From the NCBI GenBank assembly GCA_937948985.1, contig CALFAK010000080.1:1-39670 (forward strand): a stretch of DNA of 39,670 nucleotides. The letters run 5' to 3'. The position numbers and the translations under genes were made by a program. The notes below the pieces were generated by a model. The model did no database searches and was not told where the DNA came from. It was given only the letters and a program-made list of their open reading frames with translations. The DNA is from an uncultured Neomegalonema sp. (GTDB lineage: Bacteria; Pseudomonadota; Alphaproteobacteria; Rhodobacterales; Rhodobacteraceae). Shown in pieces: positions 4,186 to 17,171 of the stretch (positions are counted from its first letter, which is position 1; every line of letters begins with the position of its first letter).

Positions 4186-7100
4186 ACCGCCTCGTCGATG
4201 TCGCGATCTCACGCGCCCGGATGATCGTCGCGTTTATCGCCCTCAGTCTGGTGGCGGGATGGATGGCATATAGCGGACTGCCGAAGGAGGGCAGCCCGAA
4301 CATCGACATTCCCACAATCTATGTCTCCGTAAACTATCCGGGCGTCAGCGCACTAGATTCCGAACGTCTGCTCGTCAAGCCATTGGAAAATCAGCTCAAA
4401 ACCCTCGAAGGTCTCAAGGAAATGACGGGGGTGGCCACCGAGGGCCATGCCTCCGTCGCGCTGGAATTCGATTTCGGCTTCGACAAAGAGGCCATCCTCG
4501 CCGAAGTGCGCGCTGAGGTCGACAAAGCCCAGGCCGAGTTCCCGGCGGATGCGCACGAGCCGCGCATTATCGAGATCAACACCTCACAATTTCCGATCCT
4601 CAACGTCACAATCTCCGGCGAAGCATCCGAACGTGTCCTTCTGCGTGTCGCCACCTCGCTGCAAGAGGCCATCGAGGGCATTTCCTCCGTTCTGGAAGCC
4701 GAGATCAACGGTAACCGTGACGAATTGCTCGAAATCCTGATCGATCCGTCCAAACTCGAAAGCTATAACCTCACCGCCAACGAATTGCTGCAAGTGGTCA
4801 GCAACAACAACCAAGTCATTGCGGCGGGGGCGATCACCACCGAACAAGGCGCTTTCTCTGTCAAACTGCCCGGCGCGATTGAAACAGCGGAGGACATCTA
4901 CAACCTCCCCATAAAAGTCTCCGGTGAGCGCGTCGTCACCCTGCGCGACCTCGCCGAGGTACGCCGCACATTTGAAGACCGCACCAGCATCGCACGCTTT
5001 AACGGTGAACCGACAATCTCGCTCTCGGTCAAAAAGCGCACTGGCGAAAACATCATCCGCACCGTCGAACAAGTACGCGCTGTTACAGAAGCCGTCATGT
5101 CGACTTGGCCGGATGCGCTGAAACAATCGGTGAATGTTGACTTCTCGTTGGACGAGGCAAGCCGTGTACAAGACATGGTCAGCCAGCTTGAATCGAGCGT
5201 CATCACCGCGATTTGCCTTGTTATGATTGTCGTCGTCGCCGCACTGGGCCTGCGCTCGGCCATGCTGGTGGCTTTCGCGATTCCCACATCTTTCCTGCTC
5301 GCCTTCGCACTGATGTCCGCATTGGGCATGACCGTGAACAACATGGTGATGTTCGGGCTGATCCTCGCCGTGGGAATGCTCGTGGACGGTGCGATTGTCG
5401 TTACCGAATACGCCGAGAAACGCCGCGACGAGGGCGCACGACCCTCCGTTGCCTATGGCGAGGCGGCACGGCGGATGTTCTGGCCCATCGTGTCTTCCAC
5501 CGCGACCACACTCTGCGCCTTCCTGCCGATGCTGTTCTGGCCGGGGATGCCGGGCCAGTTCATGCGTTACCTGCCGATCACGCTGATCTTCGTGCTGATC
5601 GCCTCGCTGCTGGTCGCACTGATCTACCTGCCGATCACCGGCATCATCGTCGCCCGCATTACCCGCGCGTTCAGCCGCATTCCAACCGCCATCCGTGCGG
5701 GCCTCGGCTGGCTGGGCGCAATGATACTGGGCGGCGTGGCCGCAATCGGCGCGCTCGTGACTTTCGACATGGCCAAAGCCGCCAAAGCGGGCGAGATGGT
5801 TGCGCAAAGCGTCGCCACCGATCCCGCCACCACCGCTCCCCCGGTCCCGCCATCAACTCTCCTATTCGCCGCCACCGCCGCGCTGTGCCTCCTCGCCATC
5901 GTCGCCTTCATGGCTGGTTTCAAGCCCAAAGAGCGGGCCTTCAAACCCTACAACGCCGAAAAACCAAAGCTCGGCATCTACGGCACCGTCCTGCGTTACG
6001 TCGTCGGCAACCCGATCATGCCACTGGTCGTTGTCGGCCTGACAGGCGCGGCAATTGTCGGCATATTTAAAACCTATGGCGAGAACAACTACGGCGTTGA
6101 ATTCTTCGTCGAAACCGACCCTGAAATCGCCAACCTCTATGTCAGCGCGCGCGGTAACCTCTCAATCGAGGAAAAAGACGCCATCATGCGCGTCGTTGAG
6201 GGGCGCGTTCTCGACACCGAATACGTATCCGCCGCCCTCGCCATCGTCGGTGGCGGCAATGGCGCGGGTGCGGATCAGGGCGGCGCGCCAAAGGACAAAA
6301 TCGGCTCGATCCAATTCGAGTTCGACAACTGGCGCGTCCGTAAAAAGGGCAAGGAGATCATGGCAGACCTCACAGCTGCCGTTGCCGACCTGCCCGGAGT
6401 CAAGCTCGAATTGGCAGAACAAGCCGACGGCCCGCAGCAGGGCAAGCCGATCCAAATTCAAGTCGCCGCCATCGATTTCGACACGCTCCAAGGCGCAACA
6501 CAAACCGTCATGGCGCATCTGGAGGGCGTCGAAGGCCTCAAAGACGTCGGCTCCACCCTCCCGCTCCCCGGTATCGAGTGGGAATTGGACATCGACCGCA
6601 CCGAGGCGGGCAAATTCGGCGCAAATGTCGCTTCCATCGGCGCCACCATCCAGCTGGTCACGCGCGGCGTCACGGTGGGCACGTTCCGGCCTGACGATTC
6701 CGATGACGAGATCGACATTCGCGGTCGTTTCCCAGAAGAATACCGCGTCGCAGAGATGCTCGACCGCATCCGCGTGCAAACCAATGTCGGCCTGATCCCG
6801 CTCGGCAATTTCGTTGACCGCCGCGCCGTGCCGAAACTGTCCGAGATCACCCGCCTCGACGGTATCCGCATTTTCACCGTCAGCGCCGACGTTGAATCCG
6901 GCGTCAATGCCAATGAAAAAATCGCCGAGATCGGTGAGTGGCTGGCGACTGCTGATCTGGGCAAGAATGTCAAAACCAACTTCGCGGGCGATTTTGAGGA
7001 GCAACAGGAGAGCCAGACCTTCCTGATGAACGCCTTCGCTGGCGCACTAGGCCTGATGTTCATCATCCTGCTCGCGCAATTCGACAGCTTTTATAACTCC

Positions 7101-7913
7101 TTCCTCGTCTTGCTCGCGGTTATTCTCTCCGTGGGCGGCGTGCTTGTCGGGATGATGGTGATGGGGCAATCGTTCTCGATCATCATGACCGGGATCGGAA
7201 TCGTTGCCCTCGCCGGCATTGTTGTGAACAACAATATCGTCCTCATCGATACCTATCAGGAGTTCAGCAAGACGCTTGAACCGATCGAGGCGATCATCCA
7301 GACGGGCAGCCAGCGTTTACGCCCGGTTCTGCTGACCACAATCACCACGATGGCGGGCCTGCTGCCAATGATGTTCGCGGTGTCGATTGATTTCGTCAAC
7401 GGCGGCATCACCGTCGGCGCGCCGACCGCGCTGTGGTGGACACAGCTTGCCACGGCGATCATCTTCGGCCTCGGCTTTGCGACCGTTCTGACTCTGCTGG
7501 TTACGCCCTCCCTGCTGGCGCTGCGCGTCTGGTGGCTGGGCAAACTGCCAAAACTCGGCTGGACCGGTCTCCGCAGCGTTGCGCTTGCGGGTGTGGGCGG
7601 CAAATCCCAATACATCCGCGACCGCCGTCTGCGCCGCAGTGCAAAACGCGGTCTGCGTAATCAAGAGCCGATCCTGTGGGAGCAGGCCCGCGCTTTCGGG
7701 GCAGACGGGCAAGGCGCCGGAATGGTCGACTTCGCACCGATACCGGCCCGAAATCGCGGCTATGGCGCGCCGGAGGAGATGGATGTGATCGCGGAATTAT
7801 CCGCCGAAGCGGCTTATGTACGACCCAATATCACACCAACAGTCGTCTGGTCAGAGGGCACTGAAATCCCACCCTATGATCAAGGCCCGCGCTATCCGCA
7901 GGCCGCTGAATAA
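4182..7913 (+). CDS. Atypical RND efflux permease (HAE1-like), 1243 aa
   Basis: Inner-membrane proton-driven exporter with the two-fold RND layout: TM1, a large periplasmic loop, TM2-6, then the same again. TM4 reads VGMLVDGAIVV, so the usual Asp pair (AcrB Asp407-Asp408) is Asp402-Gly403. TM10 reads GIVVNNNIVLID, with Asn replacing the relay Lys of AcrB. Two extra features make it about 200 residues longer than AcrB. The central cytoplasmic linker (about 504-600) carries two further hydrophobic segments around an Ala/Pro-rich loop. A polar tail of about 125 residues follows the last helix. Overlaps the adaptor by four bases and converges on the next gene. Substrate unknown; drug, lipid or metal export are all possible. 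Confidence 0.92.
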   Translation: MNRLVDVAISRARMIVAFIALSLVAGWMAYSGLPKEGSPNIDIPTIYVSVNYPGVSALDSERLLVKPLENQLKTLEGLKEMTGVATEGHASVALEFDFGFDKEAILAEVRAEVDKAQAEFPADAHEPRIIEINTSQFPILNVTISGEASERVLLRVATSLQEAIEGISSVLEAEINGNRDELLEILIDPSKLESYNLTANELLQVVSNNNQVIAAGAITTEQGAFSVKLPGAIETAEDIYNLPIKVSGERVVTLRDLAEVRRTFEDRTSIARFNGEPTISLSVKKRTGENIIRTVEQVRAVTEAVMSTWPDALKQSVNVDFSLDEASRVQDMVSQLESSVITAICLVMIVVVAALGLRSAMLVAFAIPTSFLLAFALMSALGMTVNNMVMFGLILAVGMLVDGAIVVTEYAEKRRDEGARPSVAYGEAARRMFWPIVSSTATTLCAFLPMLFWPGMPGQFMRYLPITLIFVLIASLLVALIYLPITGIIVARITRAFSRIPTAIRAGLGWLGAMILGGVAAIGALVTFDMAKAAKAGEMVAQSVATDPATTAPPVPPSTLLFAATAALCLLAIVAFMAGFKPKERAFKPYNAEKPKLGIYGTVLRYVVGNPIMPLVVVGLTGAAIVGIFKTYGENNYGVEFFVETDPEIANLYVSARGNLSIEEKDAIMRVVEGRVLDTEYVSAALAIVGGGNGAGADQGGAPKDKIGSIQFEFDNWRVRKKGKEIMADLTAAVADLPGVKLELAEQADGPQQGKPIQIQVAAIDFDTLQGATQTVMAHLEGVEGLKDVGSTLPLPGIEWELDIDRTEAGKFGANVASIGATIQLVTRGVTVGTFRPDDSDDEIDIRGRFPEEYRVAEMLDRIRVQTNVGLIPLGNFVDRRAVPKLSEITRLDGIRIFTVSADVESGVNANEKIAEIGEWLATADLGKNVKTNFAGDFEEQQESQTFLMNAFAGALGLMFIILLAQFDSFYNSFLVLLAVILSVGGVLVGMMVMGQSFSIIMTGIGIVALAGIVVNNNIVLIDTYQEFSKTLEPIEAIIQTGSQRLRPVLLTTITTMAGLLPMMFAVSIDFVNGGITVGAPTALWWTQLATAIIFGLGFATVLTLLVTPSLLALRVWWLGKLPKLGWTGLRSVALAGVGGKSQYIRDRRLRRSAKRGLRNQEPILWEQARAFGADGQGAGMVDFAPIPARNRGYGAPEEMDVIAELSAEAAYVRPNITPTVVWSEGTEIPPYDQGPRYPQAAE

Positions 7914-8965: not shown

Positions 8966-9019
8966 TGTGAACTCCCTGAATACAGCTTGGAGTGTTCACC
9001 ATTAACCGTTTACGGAGCG

Positions 9020-10897
9020 TTACGCGGCCTCTGTGGATTCCTGACGCGCCCACATATCGCTATAAATACCACCCTGCGACAGCAACACCGCGTGCGTCCC
9101 ACGCTCGATAACCGCGCCTTTATCCAGCACAATGATCTCATCGGCGTCGATCACTGTAGACAGGCGATGCGCGATGGTAAAAACCGTACGGTCCTCGCTC
9201 AGGCGTCGCAAACTGTCCTGAATTTCATGTTCAGTGGCCGAATCAAGCGCCGATGTCGCTTCGTCGAGAATCAGGATCGGCGGATTTTTCAAAATCGTCC
9301 GCGCAATCGCCACCCGCTGCTTCTCACCACCCGACAGTTTCAGCCCCCGCTCACCCACAGCGGTGTCGTATCCTTCGGGCAGCGCGAGGATAAACTCATG
9401 GATCGCGGCCATTTTCGCGGCGGCGATGATCTCATCCTCCGTCGCGCCCGCTTTGCCGTAGCCGATATTGTAGCGGATCGTGTCGTTGAACAGCACCGTG
9501 TCCTGCGGAACCACACCGATCTGACGGCGCAAACTCTCCTGCGTAACATCCCGCACATCCTGCCCGTCGATCAGCAACCGCCCCTCAGTCACATCGTAAA
9601 ACCGGAACAACAGCCGCGCGATTGTCGATTTACCGGCCCCGCTATGTCCGACCAGCGCAATCGTCGAGCCGCCCTTCGCGTCAATCAACAGATCGCGCAA
9701 GATGGGCCGCTCCGGCCCGTAATGAAACGCGACATTCTCAAACCGCACACGGCCTTCGCTGACCACCAGATCAGCCGCCCCCTCACGGTCCACCACTTCG
9801 GGCGGCGTATCGAGCAGCGTGAACATCTCGCCCATATCGATCAGCGACTGGCGGATTTCGCGGTAGACCGTGCCCAGGAAGTTCAGCGGCATCGCCACTT
9901 GCATCATCAGCGCGTTGACCATGACGAAATCGCCCACAGTCTGCGTCCCGGCCACAACCTCACGCCCCGACATCACCATAACCGCCGCCAGCCCCAGCGA
10001 CAGGATCATCGACTGCCCGAAATTCAGCATCGCCAGCGTTGTCTGTGTTTTGACGGCGGCATCCTCATACTGGATCATCGCACTGTCATAGCGCTGTGTT
10101 TCGCGGGTCTCAGCCGAGAAATATTTCACCGTCTCATAGTTCAGCAGCGCATCAATCGCTTTTTGGTTCGCGTCCTGATCCTGAGCGTTCATCTCCTTGC
10201 GAATTTTCACCCGCCACTCGGTCACGCGGAACGTGAACGAGATATAAGCCGCAATCGCGACCAAAATCGCCAACGCGAAATACGGCCCGAAATGCCAATA
10301 GAAAATACCGATCACCAGGAACAGTTCGATAAACAGCGGCACAATCGAGAACAGCACAAAGCGCAGCAAGAACTCCACACCCTTCACGCCACGCTCGATA
10401 ATCCGGCTCATCGCCCCGGTTTTACGCTCCAAGTGAAAGCGCAGGCTCAGGCGGTGGATATGCCCGAACGTGCGGATTGCCAACCGCCTGAGCGCACGCT
10501 GCCCGACTCTGCTAAACACAGCATCCCGAAGCTGCGCGAACAACACCTGCCCCACGCGCCCCGCGCAATAGGCCAGCACCAGCGCGACAGGGGCGATCAG
10601 AAACGCGCTCTCAACCGAGGGCGCATCCTCACCCGACAACGCGTCAACGGCGTATTTGTAGAAGAACGGCGTGATAACCGTCGCCACCTTGGCCAGCACC
10701 AGAAAGAACAGCGCCAAGACCACCCGCACCCGCGCATCTGTCTCGCCCTTCGGCCACAGGTAAGGGATCACGTCACGGATAACGCGCCACTCTGCCTTGC
10801 CGTCAGTATGCTGGCGCGCTCTCAGACCGCGCATGATCGGAGGGAATTTTTTATTCTCATCAAGGGGAGGTGTAGCGCGGCGCGCGGCGAAGGCCAA
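9020..10897 (-). CDS. Atm1-like (ABCB7-type) ABC exporter, fused permease and ATPase
   Basis: 625-residue half-transporter that would act as a homodimer in the inner membrane. The N-terminal two-thirds hold a six-helix permease. It includes the Atm1-type signatures RIIERGVKGVEFLLRF, TEWRVKIRKEMN and LNYETVKYFSAE. The nucleotide-binding domain has Walker A (GHSGAGKST, about residue 417), Q-loop (GVVPQDTVLF), signature (LSGGEKQRVAIAR), Walker B (ILILDEATSALD) and H-loop (IAHRLSTV). Alphaproteobacterial and mitochondrial Atm1 proteins export glutathione-linked sulfur species or metals and serve Fe-S metabolism and metal tolerance. That role is inferred by family. It is divergent from the Ldh-family gene, with a short shared upstream region. 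Confidence 0.93.
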   Translation of the reverse strand: MAFAARRATPPLDENKKFPPIMRGLRARQHTDGKAEWRVIRDVIPYLWPKGETDARVRVVLALFFLVLAKVATVITPFFYKYAVDALSGEDAPSVESAFLIAPVALVLAYCAGRVGQVLFAQLRDAVFSRVGQRALRRLAIRTFGHIHRLSLRFHLERKTGAMSRIIERGVKGVEFLLRFVLFSIVPLFIELFLVIGIFYWHFGPYFALAILVAIAAYISFTFRVTEWRVKIRKEMNAQDQDANQKAIDALLNYETVKYFSAETRETQRYDSAMIQYEDAAVKTQTTLAMLNFGQSMILSLGLAAVMVMSGREVVAGTQTVGDFVMVNALMMQVAMPLNFLGTVYREIRQSLIDMGEMFTLLDTPPEVVDREGAADLVVSEGRVRFENVAFHYGPERPILRDLLIDAKGGSTIALVGHSGAGKSTIARLLFRFYDVTEGRLLIDGQDVRDVTQESLRRQIGVVPQDTVLFNDTIRYNIGYGKAGATEDEIIAAAKMAAIHEFILALPEGYDTAVGERGLKLSGGEKQRVAIARTILKNPPILILDEATSALDSATEHEIQDSLRRLSEDRTVFTIAHRLSTVIDADEIIVLDKGAVIERGTHAVLLSQGGIYSDMWARQESTEAA

Positions 10898-10974
10898 TGC
10901 TCTTTCGTCCTTGCAACGGGCTTAACCGCGTTGAAAGATCACACATGAAGCGCCTGAAACCGGAAAACCGCCCC

Positions 10975-12109: not shown

Positions 12110-13384
12110 TCAACACGCCCTAGGATCGGCCAGTAATTTTGTCGCCGGATCATATCGATATGCGCGTTCGGCAACATTCGGGCGGACCTCTGAAACGGGC
12201 AGCACGATCAAAGCACGCGCCCCGCCTTCTCCACGGTTTGTCAGCTCCAAACACCCCCCGTGTTGTTTTGCCAACATATCAACAATAGACAGCCCAAGCC
12301 CCATCCCTTCGCTCAGAGTGTCCTGTTGAACAAACGGCTTGCGAAGGTTTTCCAAATCATCAGGCGAAAACCCTTTGCCGCAATCGTCAACGATAATGCG
12401 GATTTCGGAGGCACGCTCGTTAATTGTAACCGTTATAAGTCCTGCTTCCCCTGCATATTTTACCGCATTCACGGTCAAATTCGTGACCATGCGTTTTAGC
12501 GAGTGTGCATCGATATATAAATCGGGTTCAAACCCCCGTTGAATCGGGCTTCGCTTGATTTTCGCCTCTGGCCGGGCGAAACGGACTTCTTCCAACGACT
12601 GATCCACAATCGTGACAACGTTATTAAATTCGGGATTATGCGGCACGAGGTTTCTGCTCACATTCGAAAAGTCCAACAGATCTGATATCAATGACAGCAA
12701 ATGCTTACCGCTGTGAGAAATATTTTCCACATATTCCCGTTGCTTTTCTGAGTTAAACTTCCCGAAAATACCGACCAACAGCGCATCCGAAAAACCGATA
12801 ATTGCGTTCAACGGTGTGCGAAGGTCATGGCTCATGGCTGCCAGGAACTTGTCTTTCGCCGCGTCTGCCTCCTTGGCACGGTCCAACGCAACATTCAATT
12901 CTGTCTCGCGAATGCGCAGGTTATTTTCGATTCTTGCGCGTTTCAGAATTTCCTCTTCAGCGCGCTGACGCTCAGCAATCTCATTTGACAACTGCTCATT
13001 TTGCTTTGCGATTTGGGCGCCACTCGGAAATTCGACGATCCGAGGTAAAAGACGCCAGAGCATAAGCGCCGCCGTCAGCGAAATACAGCACGTCAGTACT
13101 TTTAGAATACCTTGCATCCCATAGGCAGGCCACCAAAGGCTGATCGCACCAACCAAATGCGTAATCCCGCAAAAAAAGACAAACGCGGCTGAGACAAGAG
13201 CAACCTTACTGTGCTTGAACTCCGGGCGAAGAGTCGTAAAACGCCAAATCGAGAAGGAAATTACCGTATATGCGGCAAAAGTAAGCATGTCTCCGCCGAC
13301 ATGCATTACGACGAGGTCCGGTCGCCACAAAAGACAATACCCGTGAGGGACAAATGATGCGGCACCGAAGATATAATCTATCAT
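12110..13384 (-). CDS. Orphan histidine kinase with an ethylene-receptor-like membrane sensor
   Basis: 424 residues. The N-terminus (FVPHGYCLLWRP, then three membrane helices to about residue 114) matches the bacterial relatives of the ETR1 ethylene-binding domain. Asp32, Tyr39, Cys72 and His76 fall at the ETR1 Asp25, Tyr32, Cys65 and His69 positions with identical spacing, and Cys-Gly-Ile-Thr-His-Leu is the Cu(I)-site signature. ETR1 Ile35 is Ile42, but Pro36 is Ser43 and Ile62 is Val69. A coiled coil (about 122-178) leads into HisKA (MSHDLRTPLNAIIGFSD, phospho-His186) and an HATPase domain (NLTVNAVKYAG, DDCGKGFSPDD, GLGLSIVDML). There is no receiver domain and no response regulator nearby. 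The ligand is unproven: copper-bound ethylene, another small olefin or redox are possible. Confidence 0.9.
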   Translation of the reverse strand: MIDYIFGAASFVPHGYCLLWRPDLVVMHVGGDMLTFAAYTVISFSIWRFTTLRPEFKHSKVALVSAAFVFFCGITHLVGAISLWWPAYGMQGILKVLTCCISLTAALMLWRLLPRIVEFPSGAQIAKQNEQLSNEIAERQRAEEEILKRARIENNLRIRETELNVALDRAKEADAAKDKFLAAMSHDLRTPLNAIIGFSDALLVGIFGKFNSEKQREYVENISHSGKHLLSLISDLLDFSNVSRNLVPHNPEFNNVVTIVDQSLEEVRFARPEAKIKRSPIQRGFEPDLYIDAHSLKRMVTNLTVNAVKYAGEAGLITVTINERASEIRIIVDDCGKGFSPDDLENLRKPFVQQDTLSEGMGLGLSIVDMLAKQHGGCLELTNRGEGGARALIVLPVSEVRPNVAERAYRYDPATKLLADPRAC

Positions 13385-13499: not shown

Positions 13500-14435
13500 T
13501 TACCTTAAATTCCGTTTATTGCGATGCAAACAATCAATTCGCACTGTTGCCGCCTCACCAATTGTAAACAATTCTTTCAGTGTACGTTCTATACCACGAC
13601 TTGTATCAATGGCAAACTTAGATTTAGCGAGTTTTAAGAACCGCGCCATCTCTCGCGCTTCGGTGACAACACCCAAATGCTTGAGCGTCGTTCCGGTGAG
13701 ACGGGCAGCTTGCACTGAGTCAATCTTCGCCTTCACAACCCCGACCACACGCCCCTTGCTGTCGAGCGCCGGACCACCCGAGTTACCGCGCCGCACATCC
13801 CCGACAACACCGATAAGCCCCCGCTTTTCGGGATTGCTGAGCGTGTAATCGATATTCACCGGGGTCAAACGGGGCGTCAGGCGGATTTTGCCTTCTTGCG
13901 GAAACCCGATCAGCGCCAACGGCTCACCATTTCGCGGCAGGACCGGAGCGACCAACAAGAACCGTTTGGGCCGATACGCCGCCCGCACCAGCGCCAAATC
14001 GTTCTTCGCATCAACAGCAACCACACGGGTCGCGAGGCGGCGTTGTGATCCGGGAACCCGCATCTCAACCGCATGACATTTCGCCACAACATGCGCACTT
14101 GTCAGAAAAAACCCGTCAGAACTCACCGCAAAAGCGGTTCCCGCACTATGAAAACGTACAGGCCGCGCCGCCTCTGCCCGCCGCAGCGCATCCCCCCGTA
14201 CCAGATGCGCCCGCCGCGCTTTCTCGTACCGCGTTTTAAGCGCAAATGCCTGTTCAGCACTCACCTCCGCGCCATTGCACGTACGTCTGCGCTTTTCTTG
14301 CACAATTCCCCGTGCCCGATCCCAACAATAGATCACCTGTTCGGACGCTGCCGTTCGCGTTGCCGCAACGGCAGGCAAAGAATGGACAGGAAGCACGATG
14401 GCGGCGAGGGTCAGAAGGCGGATGATCTGTTTCAT
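13500..14435 (-). CDS. Exported trypsin-like (S1/DegP-type) serine protease
   Basis: About 311 residues from the preferred ATG at 14435. The upstream frame to 14483 adds 16 residues before a good signal peptide (MKQIIRLLTLAAIVLPVHSL, cleavage after AVAA), so the internal start is chosen. The catalytic triad is visible as FLTSAHVV (His), KNDLALV (Asp) and GDVRRGNSGGPAL (Ser). No PDZ domain follows, unlike DegP. A Cys pair near the mature N-terminus (YCWDRARG, RRRTCNG) may form a disulfide. Likely periplasmic. It is separated by 115 bases from the kinase gene downstream and shows no evident functional link to it. Confidence 0.88.
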   Translation of the reverse strand: MKQIIRLLTLAAIVLPVHSLPAVAATRTAASEQVIYCWDRARGIVQEKRRRTCNGAEVSAEQAFALKTRYEKARRAHLVRGDALRRAEAARPVRFHSAGTAFAVSSDGFFLTSAHVVAKCHAVEMRVPGSQRRLATRVVAVDAKNDLALVRAAYRPKRFLLVAPVLPRNGEPLALIGFPQEGKIRLTPRLTPVNIDYTLSNPEKRGLIGVVGDVRRGNSGGPALDSKGRVVGVVKAKIDSVQAARLTGTTLKHLGVVTEAREMARFLKLAKSKFAIDTSRGIERTLKELFTIGEAATVRIDCLHRNKRNLR

Positions 14436-14481
14436 ACGGTCAAGCACAGCAAAAACCGTGCAAACCGGTCTCAAAAGACTC

Positions 14482-14505
14482 AAAAAACGCGAGAAATCGC
14501 TTTTT
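14482..14505. terminator. Bidirectional intrinsic terminator with a GAAA loop
   Basis: Reading plus, A6 then C then GCGA, loop GAAA (14493-14496), TCGC and T5 (14501-14505). Reading minus, the same hairpin is followed by T6. On the minus strand it would end transcripts coming from ccmFH, about 220 bases after the ccmH stop. It separates that transcript from the protease gene. Confidence 0.65.
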
Positions 14506-14724: not shown

Positions 14725-15189
14725 TTAACCTTCCCGATCCGCCGTCAATCGCTCCACCCGCGCCCGCTCCTCATCGGACAAAGGCGCAGCCGCCGCAGGG
14801 ACACTCGACGGACGCATCGAAATCTGCCGCCACGCGAAAAATCCACCCAACAACAACAACAGCGGCCCGCCCAGGTACAGCGCCGCACTCAACGCATTAA
14901 AACGCGGTTTCAGCAGCACATACTCGCCATACCGTGCCACCACATAGTCGAGCACTTCCTCATTGCTGTCCCCTTCGCTCAGGCGCTCACGCACCAGAAC
15001 GCGCAGGTCTTTCGCCAACCCCGCATCGGAATCGTCAATGCTCTGGTTCCGGCAAACAAGACAGCGCAAGCCTTTGGACAACTCCCGCGCACGCTGCTCC
15101 AATGCGGGATTCTCCAACATTTCCGAAGGCTGCACCGCGGCCACCGGCGACGTGAACAAGGCAAGGCATATCAGCAAAACCGCCCTCAT
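14725..15189 (-). CDS. ccmH: Cytochrome c maturation protein CcmH
   Basis: 154-residue thiol-disulfide subunit of the heme-attachment (system I) machinery in the periplasm. It reduces the apocytochrome CxxCH cysteines so that CcmF can ligate heme. A signal peptide (MRAVLLICLALFTSPVAA) is followed by the helical domain with the active-site LRCLVCRNQS (Cys43, Cys46), a conserved RLSEGDSNEEVLDYVVARYG, and a C-terminal membrane anchor (LYLGGPLLLLLGGFFAW). The longer frame to 15306 overlaps ccmF and lacks a signal peptide at its start. The ATG at 15189 overlaps the ccmF stop as ATGA, which fixes the start. It is the short form, with no CcmI-like extension. Confidence 0.95.
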   Translation of the reverse strand: MRAVLLICLALFTSPVAAVQPSEMLENPALEQRARELSKGLRCLVCRNQSIDDSDAGLAKDLRVLVRERLSEGDSNEEVLDYVVARYGEYVLLKPRFNALSAALYLGGPLLLLLGGFFAWRQISMRPSSVPAAAAPLSDEERARVERLTADREG

Positions 15190-17171
15190 TCCGCCGCCAC
15201 CAGCGGTTCTTCGCGCCGCGCGGCCTGCCTTGGCGCACCCACGCGGTGCCGCCTGTCTGTCAGGCTCAACACGCCGCCCAGCGTCATGATCAGCGCCCCG
15301 ATCCATATCCAGTTCGCATAGGGCTTCACATAGCTTCGCACGACCCAGCCGCCGTTATCCTGCTTGTCCCCAATCACCACATAGACGTCCTCGATCAGGC
15401 TCGCACGGATACCCGCCTCGGTCGTCTGAGTGCGCTGCACCGGATAAAACCGCTTCTCCGAAACCAGCGTCGCAATCTCCTTACCATCGCGGAACACGGT
15501 GAAATTCCCGCCATCAATCCGATAATTCGGCCCACGCGAGCGCTCGACCCCGTCAAACCGGATTTCATAGCCCGACAGCGGGATCATATCGCCCTTCTGC
15601 GCCACCCGAATATCCTCAGTCGCCCAAGCGGAGATCGCCGCAATCCCGAACGCGGTCACACCAAACCCGATATGCGCCACCGCTTGCCCCCAGGCCGAAC
15701 GCGGCAACCCGCCCAGCCGCCGCATCACTTCTCCGGCGGGCGCACGGCCAAGCTTCACCCGCTCGGCCAGATCGACCAGCACCCCGAATATCGCCCAGAA
15801 AGCCAACGCAATCGCAATCGGCGCAAGGATAGACCCGCCCCAACGCGACACTGCAAACACCACCCCGACCAGCGCCGACAGCAGCGCGGCAAGCCACAGC
15901 TTGCGCATCACCTTGCCCAAATCGCCCCGCTTCCAGGGCAACGCGGCCCCCAGCGGCATGGCGATCAGTATGGCGATCATCAACGGCGCGAATGCCAAAT
16001 CGAAGAACGGCGCACCGACGCTGATTTTCTCTTCCGTGAATGCCTCGACGAACAACGGATAAAGCGTCCCGATAAACACCACCGCCGTCCCGACAGTCAG
16101 CATCAGATTGTTGAATATCAAACCGCTTTCACGGCTCACAGGCGCAAACACACCCTCAGGGGCCATTTTCGGCGCCCGCCATGCATACAGCGCCAGCGCA
16201 CCCCCCGTCGCAATCGCCAAAATGCCGAGGATAAACACCCCCCGCTCAGGATCACTTGCAAAGGCGTGAACACTGGTCAGCAAACCCGAACGCACGATAA
16301 ACGTCCCCACCAGACTCAGCGAAAAGCCGATAATCGCCAGCAAAATCGTCCAGCTTTTCAGCGTCGAGCGCTTCTCCACCACGATCGCCGAATGCAGCAG
16401 CGCGGCGGCGATCAACCACGGCATAAAGCTCGCGTTTTCAACAGGGTCCCAGAACCACCAGCCGCCCCAGCCCAATTCGTAATACGCCCAATAGCTGCCC
16501 AGCGCGATCCCGACCGTCAGCGTTGACCACGCCAGCAACGCCCAAGGCCGCACCCACCGCGCCCACGCCGCATCAACCCGCCCGTCAATCAGGGCGGCCA
16601 CGGCAAAGCTGAACGGCATCGACAGGCCCACATAGCCCAGATACAGGAACGGCGGATGCGCCGCCAAGGCCCAGTCCTGTAGCAACGGATTCAACCCGTT
16701 ACCATCCAACGGCACAGGATCAAGCCGCTCAAACGGGTTCGACGTGAACAGGATAAACGCCATAAACGCGACCCCGATCATTGCCTGAACCGACAGAGTC
16801 CGGGCGCGCAATGCGGGGGGGATATTCTGCCCGAATGCCGCGACCATTGCGCCGTAGAGGGTCAGAATCAACACCCATAAAAGCATCGATCCTTCATGGT
16901 TTCCCCAAACTCCGGCGATCTTGTAGAGGAACGGCTTGGCGCTGTGCGAGTTGCTTGTCACCAATTTCACCGAGAAATCCGAGGTGATAAAGCTGTAAGT
17001 CAGCGCCGCGAATGACAGGCCGATCAATAAAAACCCAATCAAAGCAGCAGGTTCCGCGAAGCGCATCGGCTCCGCGTATCCTTTTTGCGCCCCCCACATC
17101 GGGATGATGGCCTGTGCCAGCGTCACCGCAAATGCGAGCACCAGCGCGAAATGTCCGAGTTCTGCTATCAT
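15186..17171 (-). CDS. ccmF: Heme lyase subunit CcmF
   Basis: 661-residue polytopic membrane protein of the HCC family that transfers heme from holo-CcmE to apocytochrome c. The WWD signature is WGGWWFWDPVENASFMPWL at about residues 235-250. Other family marks are GVWGNHEGSMLLW near residue 90, HPPFLYLGYVG and the large periplasmic domain before the last helix. Its length is typical. It is followed by ccmH with a four-base overlap. In many relatives ccmE lies directly upstream, but here the upstream neighbour is a divergent LysE-type exporter, so ccmE must be elsewhere. No strong ribosome-binding site is seen. Confidence 0.96.
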   Translation of the reverse strand: MIAELGHFALVLAFAVTLAQAIIPMWGAQKGYAEPMRFAEPAALIGFLLIGLSFAALTYSFITSDFSVKLVTSNSHSAKPFLYKIAGVWGNHEGSMLLWVLILTLYGAMVAAFGQNIPPALRARTLSVQAMIGVAFMAFILFTSNPFERLDPVPLDGNGLNPLLQDWALAAHPPFLYLGYVGLSMPFSFAVAALIDGRVDAAWARWVRPWALLAWSTLTVGIALGSYWAYYELGWGGWWFWDPVENASFMPWLIAAALLHSAIVVEKRSTLKSWTILLAIIGFSLSLVGTFIVRSGLLTSVHAFASDPERGVFILGILAIATGGALALYAWRAPKMAPEGVFAPVSRESGLIFNNLMLTVGTAVVFIGTLYPLFVEAFTEEKISVGAPFFDLAFAPLMIAILIAMPLGAALPWKRGDLGKVMRKLWLAALLSALVGVVFAVSRWGGSILAPIAIALAFWAIFGVLVDLAERVKLGRAPAGEVMRRLGGLPRSAWGQAVAHIGFGVTAFGIAAISAWATEDIRVAQKGDMIPLSGYEIRFDGVERSRGPNYRIDGGNFTVFRDGKEIATLVSEKRFYPVQRTQTTEAGIRASLIEDVYVVIGDKQDNGGWVVRSYVKPYANWIWIGALIMTLGGVLSLTDRRHRVGAPRQAARREEPLVAAE

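Follow-up and report, generated by a model that had tools for sequence, protein, structure and literature searches.

Does a bacterial histidine kinase that keeps the copper-site residues of the plant ethylene receptor ETR1, and has lost the proline at position 36 of that receptor, still respond to ethylene? The question is raised by a gene in the 3.4 Mb draft genome of an uncultured Neomegalonema, a genus of the Rhodobacterales, within a 39.7-kb stretch of DNA that is referred to here as the window.

Organization of the kinase gene

The gene (12110..13384, minus strand, as are all of its features given below) begins with ATG and codes for a 424-residue sensor histidine kinase, an assignment drawn from the open reading frame list, the Pfam matches and the purifying selection described below. 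Its domain order is ETR1_N sensor, linker, HisKA and HATPase_c. The ETR1_N domain, with three membrane helices, spans residues 24-118 (13031..13315; Pfam PF25487), and the segment 13040-13312 corresponds to residues 115 down to 25. PF25487 matches the N-terminus with E=1.8e-24 and a score of 86.2 bits, where the curated cut-off is 27, so that a chance match is ruled out. The original prediction of an ethylene-receptor-type domain on a histidine kinase thus stands, and the profile search, which could have placed the N-terminus in an unrelated family, returned PF25487 instead.

The HisKA domain (residues 176-241, 12662..12859; PF00512, E=2.1e-19) and the HATPase_c domain (residues 292-397, 12194..12511; PF02518, E=9.2e-22) provide the histidine-kinase core found in receptors of the SynEtr1 and AzoEtr1 type. 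The putative phospho-acceptor is His186 (12827..12829), read from the translation within SHDLRTPLNAIIGFSD, which we take from established knowledge to be the H-box. A Pfam search of the 424 residues found no PAS, GAF or receiver domain, and no relative was found in the PDB by sequence. The kinase core resembles those of DivJ/PleC/PdhS-type kinases, and the DivJ model NF050805 is the best of the NCBIfam models listed (147.1 bits, on the kinase core); this is far under its cut-off of 1000, and a DivJ/PleC/PdhS assignment was not made. The closest paralogue in the genome is 39% identical across the kinase core.

The copper-ligand residues are retained

Alignment with the AtETR1 membrane domain equates ETR1 D25, Y32, I35, C65 and H69 with D32, Y39, I42, C72 and H76 of the window protein. 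The offset is a constant +7, and the D-to-C spacing of 40 is therefore the same as in ETR1, as had been predicted for Asp32, Tyr39, Cys72 and His76. The residues concerned are Asp32 (13289..13291), Tyr39 (13268..13270), and Cys72 (13169..13171; PMC11819568, PMC6586836) and His76 (13157..13159; PMC6586836) as the probable Cu(I) ligands. The Cu(I) site of ETR1 has been placed at Asp25, Cys65 and His69 (PMC12643061), all of which have their counterparts in register here, and the ETR1 membrane domain binds Cu(I) 1:1 with a femtomolar apparent affinity (PMC6586836). In a model of ETR1, Asp25 positions H69 and pairs with K91, a pairing that bears on output (PMC11819568); its partner here would be Lys95 (13100..13102), predicted to form a polar bond to Asp32. 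Lys95 and Thr98, equivalent to K91 and T94, belong to the Lys-Val-Leu-Thr motif of the third helix, which is present as described earlier. On a helical wheel the copper-site residues and the changed residues discussed below lie no more than 80 degrees from D25, C65 or K91 of the helix concerned, with the exception of position 24 at 100 degrees, which is a weak hint that they face a common region.

The PHGYCLLW segment noted in the original prediction lies before helix 1, at residues 13-20 (13325..13348), and contains an HxxC pair, His14/Cys17. Both residues are present in each of the 106 sequences that keep D25, C65 and H69 (99 relatives and the seven Neomegalonema carriers), a count that is biased since 80 of the 106 came from search patterns that include the PHG motif. 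We also note that HxxC (13334-13345 in the window) tracks the copper ligands among 56 loci found by profile: 44 have HxxC together with C65/H69, eight have neither and four have one, although the rows are not independent. The His14/Cys17 pair of the PHGxC segment might help to load or hold copper.

Changes around the presumed pocket

A different picture is seen at the other core positions when the seven Neomegalonema carriers are compared with 99 relatives whose copper ligands are intact. These relatives are what is left of 114 aligned rows after removal of the seven genus members, the ETR1 row and seven loci (L038, L040-L044 and L046) that have a garbled N-terminus or changed ligands. All seven carriers have D25, Y32, I35, F61, C65, H69, K91, S98 and A102. 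At the Pro36 position, however, which is Ser43 (13256..13258) in the window protein as had been predicted, three carriers have Ser and four have Ala, against Pro in 97 of 99 relatives. The Phe58 position (Ser65, 13190..13192) is Ser in 7/7 carriers and Phe in 98/99 relatives, and the Thr101 position (Ala105, 13070..13072) is Ala in 7/7 and Thr in 93/99. Gly or Ala occupies the S24 position in all seven carriers, compared with Ser in 83 relatives, and a loop position (ETR1 48) is Glu in all seven, compared with Asp in 83. I28T, I62V and T94V are each found in six of the seven; the window protein has Val69 (13178..13180) at Ile62 and retains T94. The changes at Phe58 and Ile62 are additional to those noted originally. 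A sequencing or assembly error at Pro36 is ruled out by the presence of Ser or Ala in seven separate genome assemblies.

Seven residues that we take to be required for ethylene binding in ETR1, and so to mark an ETR1-like ethylene receptor, are D25, Y32, I35, P36, I62, C65 and H69; the window protein keeps five of these, with P36 replaced by Ser43 and I62 by Val69. In ETR1, I35, P36, I62, C65 and H69 are among the residues essential for ethylene binding (PMC6586836), and D25 and C65 are among those identified as required by alanine scanning (PMC11819568). Of the other changed positions, the available text of PMC6586836 describes F58 just as buried, states that I28 had not been tested and reports no effect of T94 on binding. 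Substitution of Pro36 by Leu gives ethylene-insensitive tomato (PMC6727826), and P36L is also a gain-of-function allele in squash (PMC8012379).

The residues of the core are smaller in the carriers. Over 18 conserved membrane positions, picked by conservation and not by change (position 24 was excluded though it is over the 80% mark), the residue volumes of the window protein add up to 2224 A3 and those of the seven carriers to 2224-2354 A3, against 2471 +/- 34 A3 (range 2325-2558) in the 99 relatives; the comparison is biased in that large conserved residues can, for the most part, change only to smaller ones, and rows that are related do not count as independent. The window value is 10% under the relatives' mean. 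Five of the seven carriers fall below every relative, and the other two fall below all except L023, which is itself F58A/T101A. At the 55 other membrane positions there is no reduction in the carriers (7094-7583, compared with a mean of 7298, sd 188).

The reading that we favor from these alignments, and hold with about even confidence, is that the gene encodes an ETR1_N-family sensor kinase that depends on copper, has a remodelled pocket and an altered ligand, and is probably not ETR1-like for ethylene. Cys72 and His76 of a dimer, near Asp32, would coordinate Cu(I) within the membrane; when a small molecule bound this copper, the packing of the helices (Asp32-Lys95) would shift, and this shift would switch autophosphorylation at His186, from which the phosphate would pass to a response regulator encoded elsewhere. 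Small residues at the positions of both Pro36 and Phe58 probably make this pocket more polar or give it more room, and ethylene is thus unlikely to be bound with the affinity seen in ETR1; some other small molecule that binds copper, or a bulkier one, would be a likelier ligand. The earlier suggestion that the change at Pro36 makes a different ligand plausible is backed at the sequence level. The Ala found at the P36 position in four of the seven carriers is the same residue as in the ETR1 alanine scan, which is consistent with an altered pocket. Weighing against this, the available part of PMC6586836 lists just P36 and I62, among the changed positions, as essential for ethylene binding, and the second of these is a mild Ile-to-Val change.

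An ordinary bacterial ethylene receptor, in which the P36, F58 and I62 changes are compensated and ethylene is still bound at the copper site, is also possible, if somewhat doubtful. The copper ligands, Tyr32, Ile35 and Lys91 are all intact, and the bacterial members AzoEtr1 and SynEtr1 have been shown to bind ethylene (PMC11819568). However, the window protein differs from ETR1 at two of the seven required residues, none of the seven carriers has P36, and P36L is the allele that confers ethylene insensitivity in tomato (PMC6727826).

Selection on the sensor domain

It could be asked whether the domain binds anything, and a relic that simply anchors and dimerises the kinase might be expected to accumulate core changes and to sit on a long stem branch, both of which are seen here. 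Its distribution is also patchy: the domain was found in seven of 14 genomes of the genus (the window's included) and in five of the eight of good quality, although some of the seven genomes with no match are incomplete drafts. We nonetheless consider a relic very improbable. Of 21 pairs, 14 have unsaturated synonymous sites, and in these dN/dS for residues 1-120 is 0.05-0.20, values that are rough because most pairs are near saturation. Of the 12 unsaturated pairs where both could be computed, 11 give a lower value for residues 1-120 than for the ATPase domain. The ETR1_N domain is under purifying selection. Moreover, D25, Y32, C65, H69, K91 and S98 are invariant over the seven species, whereas decayed-looking domains elsewhere (L040, L041, L043 and L044) have lost Cys65, and two of them (L043 and L044) have also lost His69.

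Distribution of the family and loss of Pro36

An alphaproteobacterium had been thought a less expected host for such a domain, and this does not hold up. A profile search finds ETR1_N in 28 of 385 sampled genomes of the class and in 29 of 398 drawn from the phylum (28 over the cut-off), the window's genome being included in both counts; the family profile gave zero matches in 14 control genomes. Within the order, a search by alignment found matches in 14 of 390 genomes, again with the window's included; of the other 13, L235 carries Ser in place of C65, L236 no longer has the copper ligands, and L237 aligns partially and shows no copper ligands. The family is scattered yet not rare. Named carriers include Roseibium, Stappia, Cognatishimia, Leisingera and Qipengyuania, which we take to be marine genera. 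A proven ethylene receptor is present in Azospirillum (PMC11819568).

Loss of Pro36 is uncommon. The first tally covers 57 loci found by profile, with the window, of which one with a garbled N-terminus was dropped and from which matches with no locus were excluded; D25, C65 and H69 are kept in 44 of the remaining 56, and these have Pro36 in 40 cases, Ser in three (the window, L169 and L173) and Ala in one (L176, which also carries Phe at Y32 and Ser at K91). In the second tally, of 80 loci kept from 157 that had been found with patterns favoring the PHG motif, 72 have Pro36, and the eight without it are six from Neomegalonema, L098 from Filomicrobium and L140 from Telmatospirillum. Outside Neomegalonema, proteins with D25, C65 and H69 intact and no Pro36 are L098 (Ser; L098:5001-5372), L140 (Gly; L140:5001-5360), L169 and L173 (Ser), and L176 and L233 (Ala). 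Phe58 is kept in L098, L140, L169/L173 and L176, and among the rows read Ser at F58 is combined with Pro36 loss solely in Neomegalonema.

In a 98-row tree, from which six core columns were removed and in which L176, L233 and the ETR1 row are not included, the seven Neomegalonema carriers form a single clade (support 100/99). Pro36 loss requires four changes on the best tree, at least three of them forced by well-supported branches, all with the copper ligands kept; a single shared origin for the Pro36-less members (11 of the 98 rows) is rejected (p-AU 0.00019). A tree with L176, ETR1 and all columns needs five changes. Repeated loss in lineages that keep Phe58 suggests that the proline may be dispensable in bacteria, a point in favor of an ordinary ethylene receptor. 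The stem branch of the Neomegalonema clade is long, at 0.95 changes per column, and some of the core changes may therefore be drift. Coupling of F58 with T101 or P36 across the tree is represented by one independent pair on supported branches, too few for a conclusion.

A more complex relationship concerns L233, a protein from a different genus in the same family group (genome G1108). It has I28T, P36A, F58A, T94V and T101A and keeps D, Y, C, H and K, but differs from the Neomegalonema proteins in having Phe at Ile35, and the tree places it apart. It groups with the Neomegalonema clade in 0 of 200 bootstrap trees, yet a single clade is not rejected (p-AU 0.22), so that convergence is possible. 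Tentatively, part of the family may have kept the copper site while its ethylene pocket was enlarged (Ser or Ala at P36 and F58, T101A, and mostly I28T, I62V and T94V) and came to sense another small molecule, with L233 suggesting a recurring type of pocket and not decay.

Earlier publications describe the family, its occurrence in proteobacteria and its role as an ethylene receptor (PMC11819568, PMC7700396), and bacterial ETR1_N proteins have been read as likely ethylene receptors for carrying seven ETR1 residues (PMC11819568). Our literature search, which was thin on subscription papers, found no published bacterial clade with intact copper ligands and no Pro36. Plants that lose this proline no longer sense ethylene, so a natural clade that lacks it and yet keeps every copper ligand would set copper binding apart from ethylene binding, and the Neomegalonema proteins are ready material for studying the role of the proline and other ligands at the copper site.

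Comparison with known systems

L147, read as AzoEtr1 of Azospirillum brasilense, is like the window protein in having ETR1_N, HisKA and HATPase_c domains, a PHGxCLxW segment, and D, Y, I, C, H and K at the same alignment positions. It differs in having Pro36, Phe58 and Ile62 where the window protein has Ser, Ser and Val, and in carrying a PAS domain and being followed by a receiver gene, both of which are absent here. Plant ETR1 shares the copper-site residues, their spacing and the Lys-Val-Leu-Thr of helix 3, and is separated from the window protein by P36S, F58S, I62V, I28T and T101A; the PHGYCLLW segment replaces the plant N-terminus, and the GAF and receiver domains of plant ETR1 are missing.

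The ETR1_N kinases of Roseibium and Stappia have sensors 42-48% identical to that of the window protein over the matched part, but unlike it they keep Pro36 and Phe58. One of these, L077, combines a PAS domain with an HWE-type kinase, and its neighbors are phyR, nepR and a sigma gene resembling ecfG. We note that this Roseibium aggregatum region (L077:2673-6812) is a putative general stress response locus with the order ecfG-like sigma gene, nepR, phyR, csbD-like gene and then the kinase, whose Pro36 is intact. Kinases of this stress-locus type also occur in L075, L076, L078, L080, L082, L083, L085, L086, L092, L093, L095 and L104, and of 80 loci compared by BLAST, 15 contain a PhyR homologue and 13 an EcfG homologue. 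The arrangement suggests that ethylene or copper feeds into the stress response in these alphaproteobacteria, a link of which our literature search found no published account. Separately, L022, L026 and L018 have open frames of 142, 153 and 195 residues with little beyond the ETR1_N domain, and are possible stand-alone sensors with no kinase.

Genomic context

The kinase gene is found in three distinct settings across the genus. In the window and in G013 it is downstream of a trypsin-like protease gene (13500..14483, minus strand in the window, co-directional; Trypsin_2, E=1.8e-19) and convergent to an Ldh_2 dehydrogenase gene; among six congener contigs, the protease adjoins the kinase only in G013. 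In G004, G008 and G009 the kinase adjoins a putative tyrA, with a putative hisC beyond it in G004 and G008, identities that we assume by eye from the N-termini. In G003 and G006 the genes downstream of the kinase are shared; the G006 contig ends at the kinase gene, and the gene upstream of the kinase in G003 is presumably purA, again read by eye.

These neighbors bear on whether the kinase senses copper itself, reading the occupancy of the Cu(I) site with no organic ligand. The 1:1 binding of Cu(I) by the ETR1 domain with femtomolar apparent affinity (PMC6586836) fits such a role, as does the retention of the ligands while other core residues have changed. We nevertheless think it unlikely, in that the nearest genes in the window, and only these are considered, encode the protease and the dehydrogenase, and a femtomolar site would always be filled unless its affinity is much lower here.

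In keeping with the original prediction, there is no adjacent response regulator: neither a home-made receiver profile nor Pfam Response_reg finds a receiver domain anywhere in the 39.7 kb of the window, and the home-made profile finds none in the six congener contigs within 6-20 kb. The gene thus differs from those of the SynEtr1 and AzoEtr1 type, which have an adjacent response-regulator gene, an arrangement that is common in the ETR1_N family and not universal. The genome as a whole has 35 Pfam Response_reg matches, none of them on the window's contig, and these give no basis to pick a partner. Contig C120 has two receivers in one 477-residue frame beside a 121-residue receiver frame, which we take, by layout only, to be a pleD-divK arrangement; a DivK-like partner for the kinase is therefore conceivable.

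Among other features of the window, we note that the region 14725-17171, upstream of the protease and kinase genes, contains a CcmF/NrfE-family heme-lyase gene that scores over its cut-off and an NrfF-like gene that, at 73 bits, is under its cut-off of 159. A 653-residue open frame (8987-10948, plus strand) is antisense to an ABC transporter gene (9020-10897, minus strand) whose best model is MsbA, under its cut-off. The antisense translation aligns over 650 residues with that of the congener G013 at 71% identity, and this conservation is probably an effect of codon composition.
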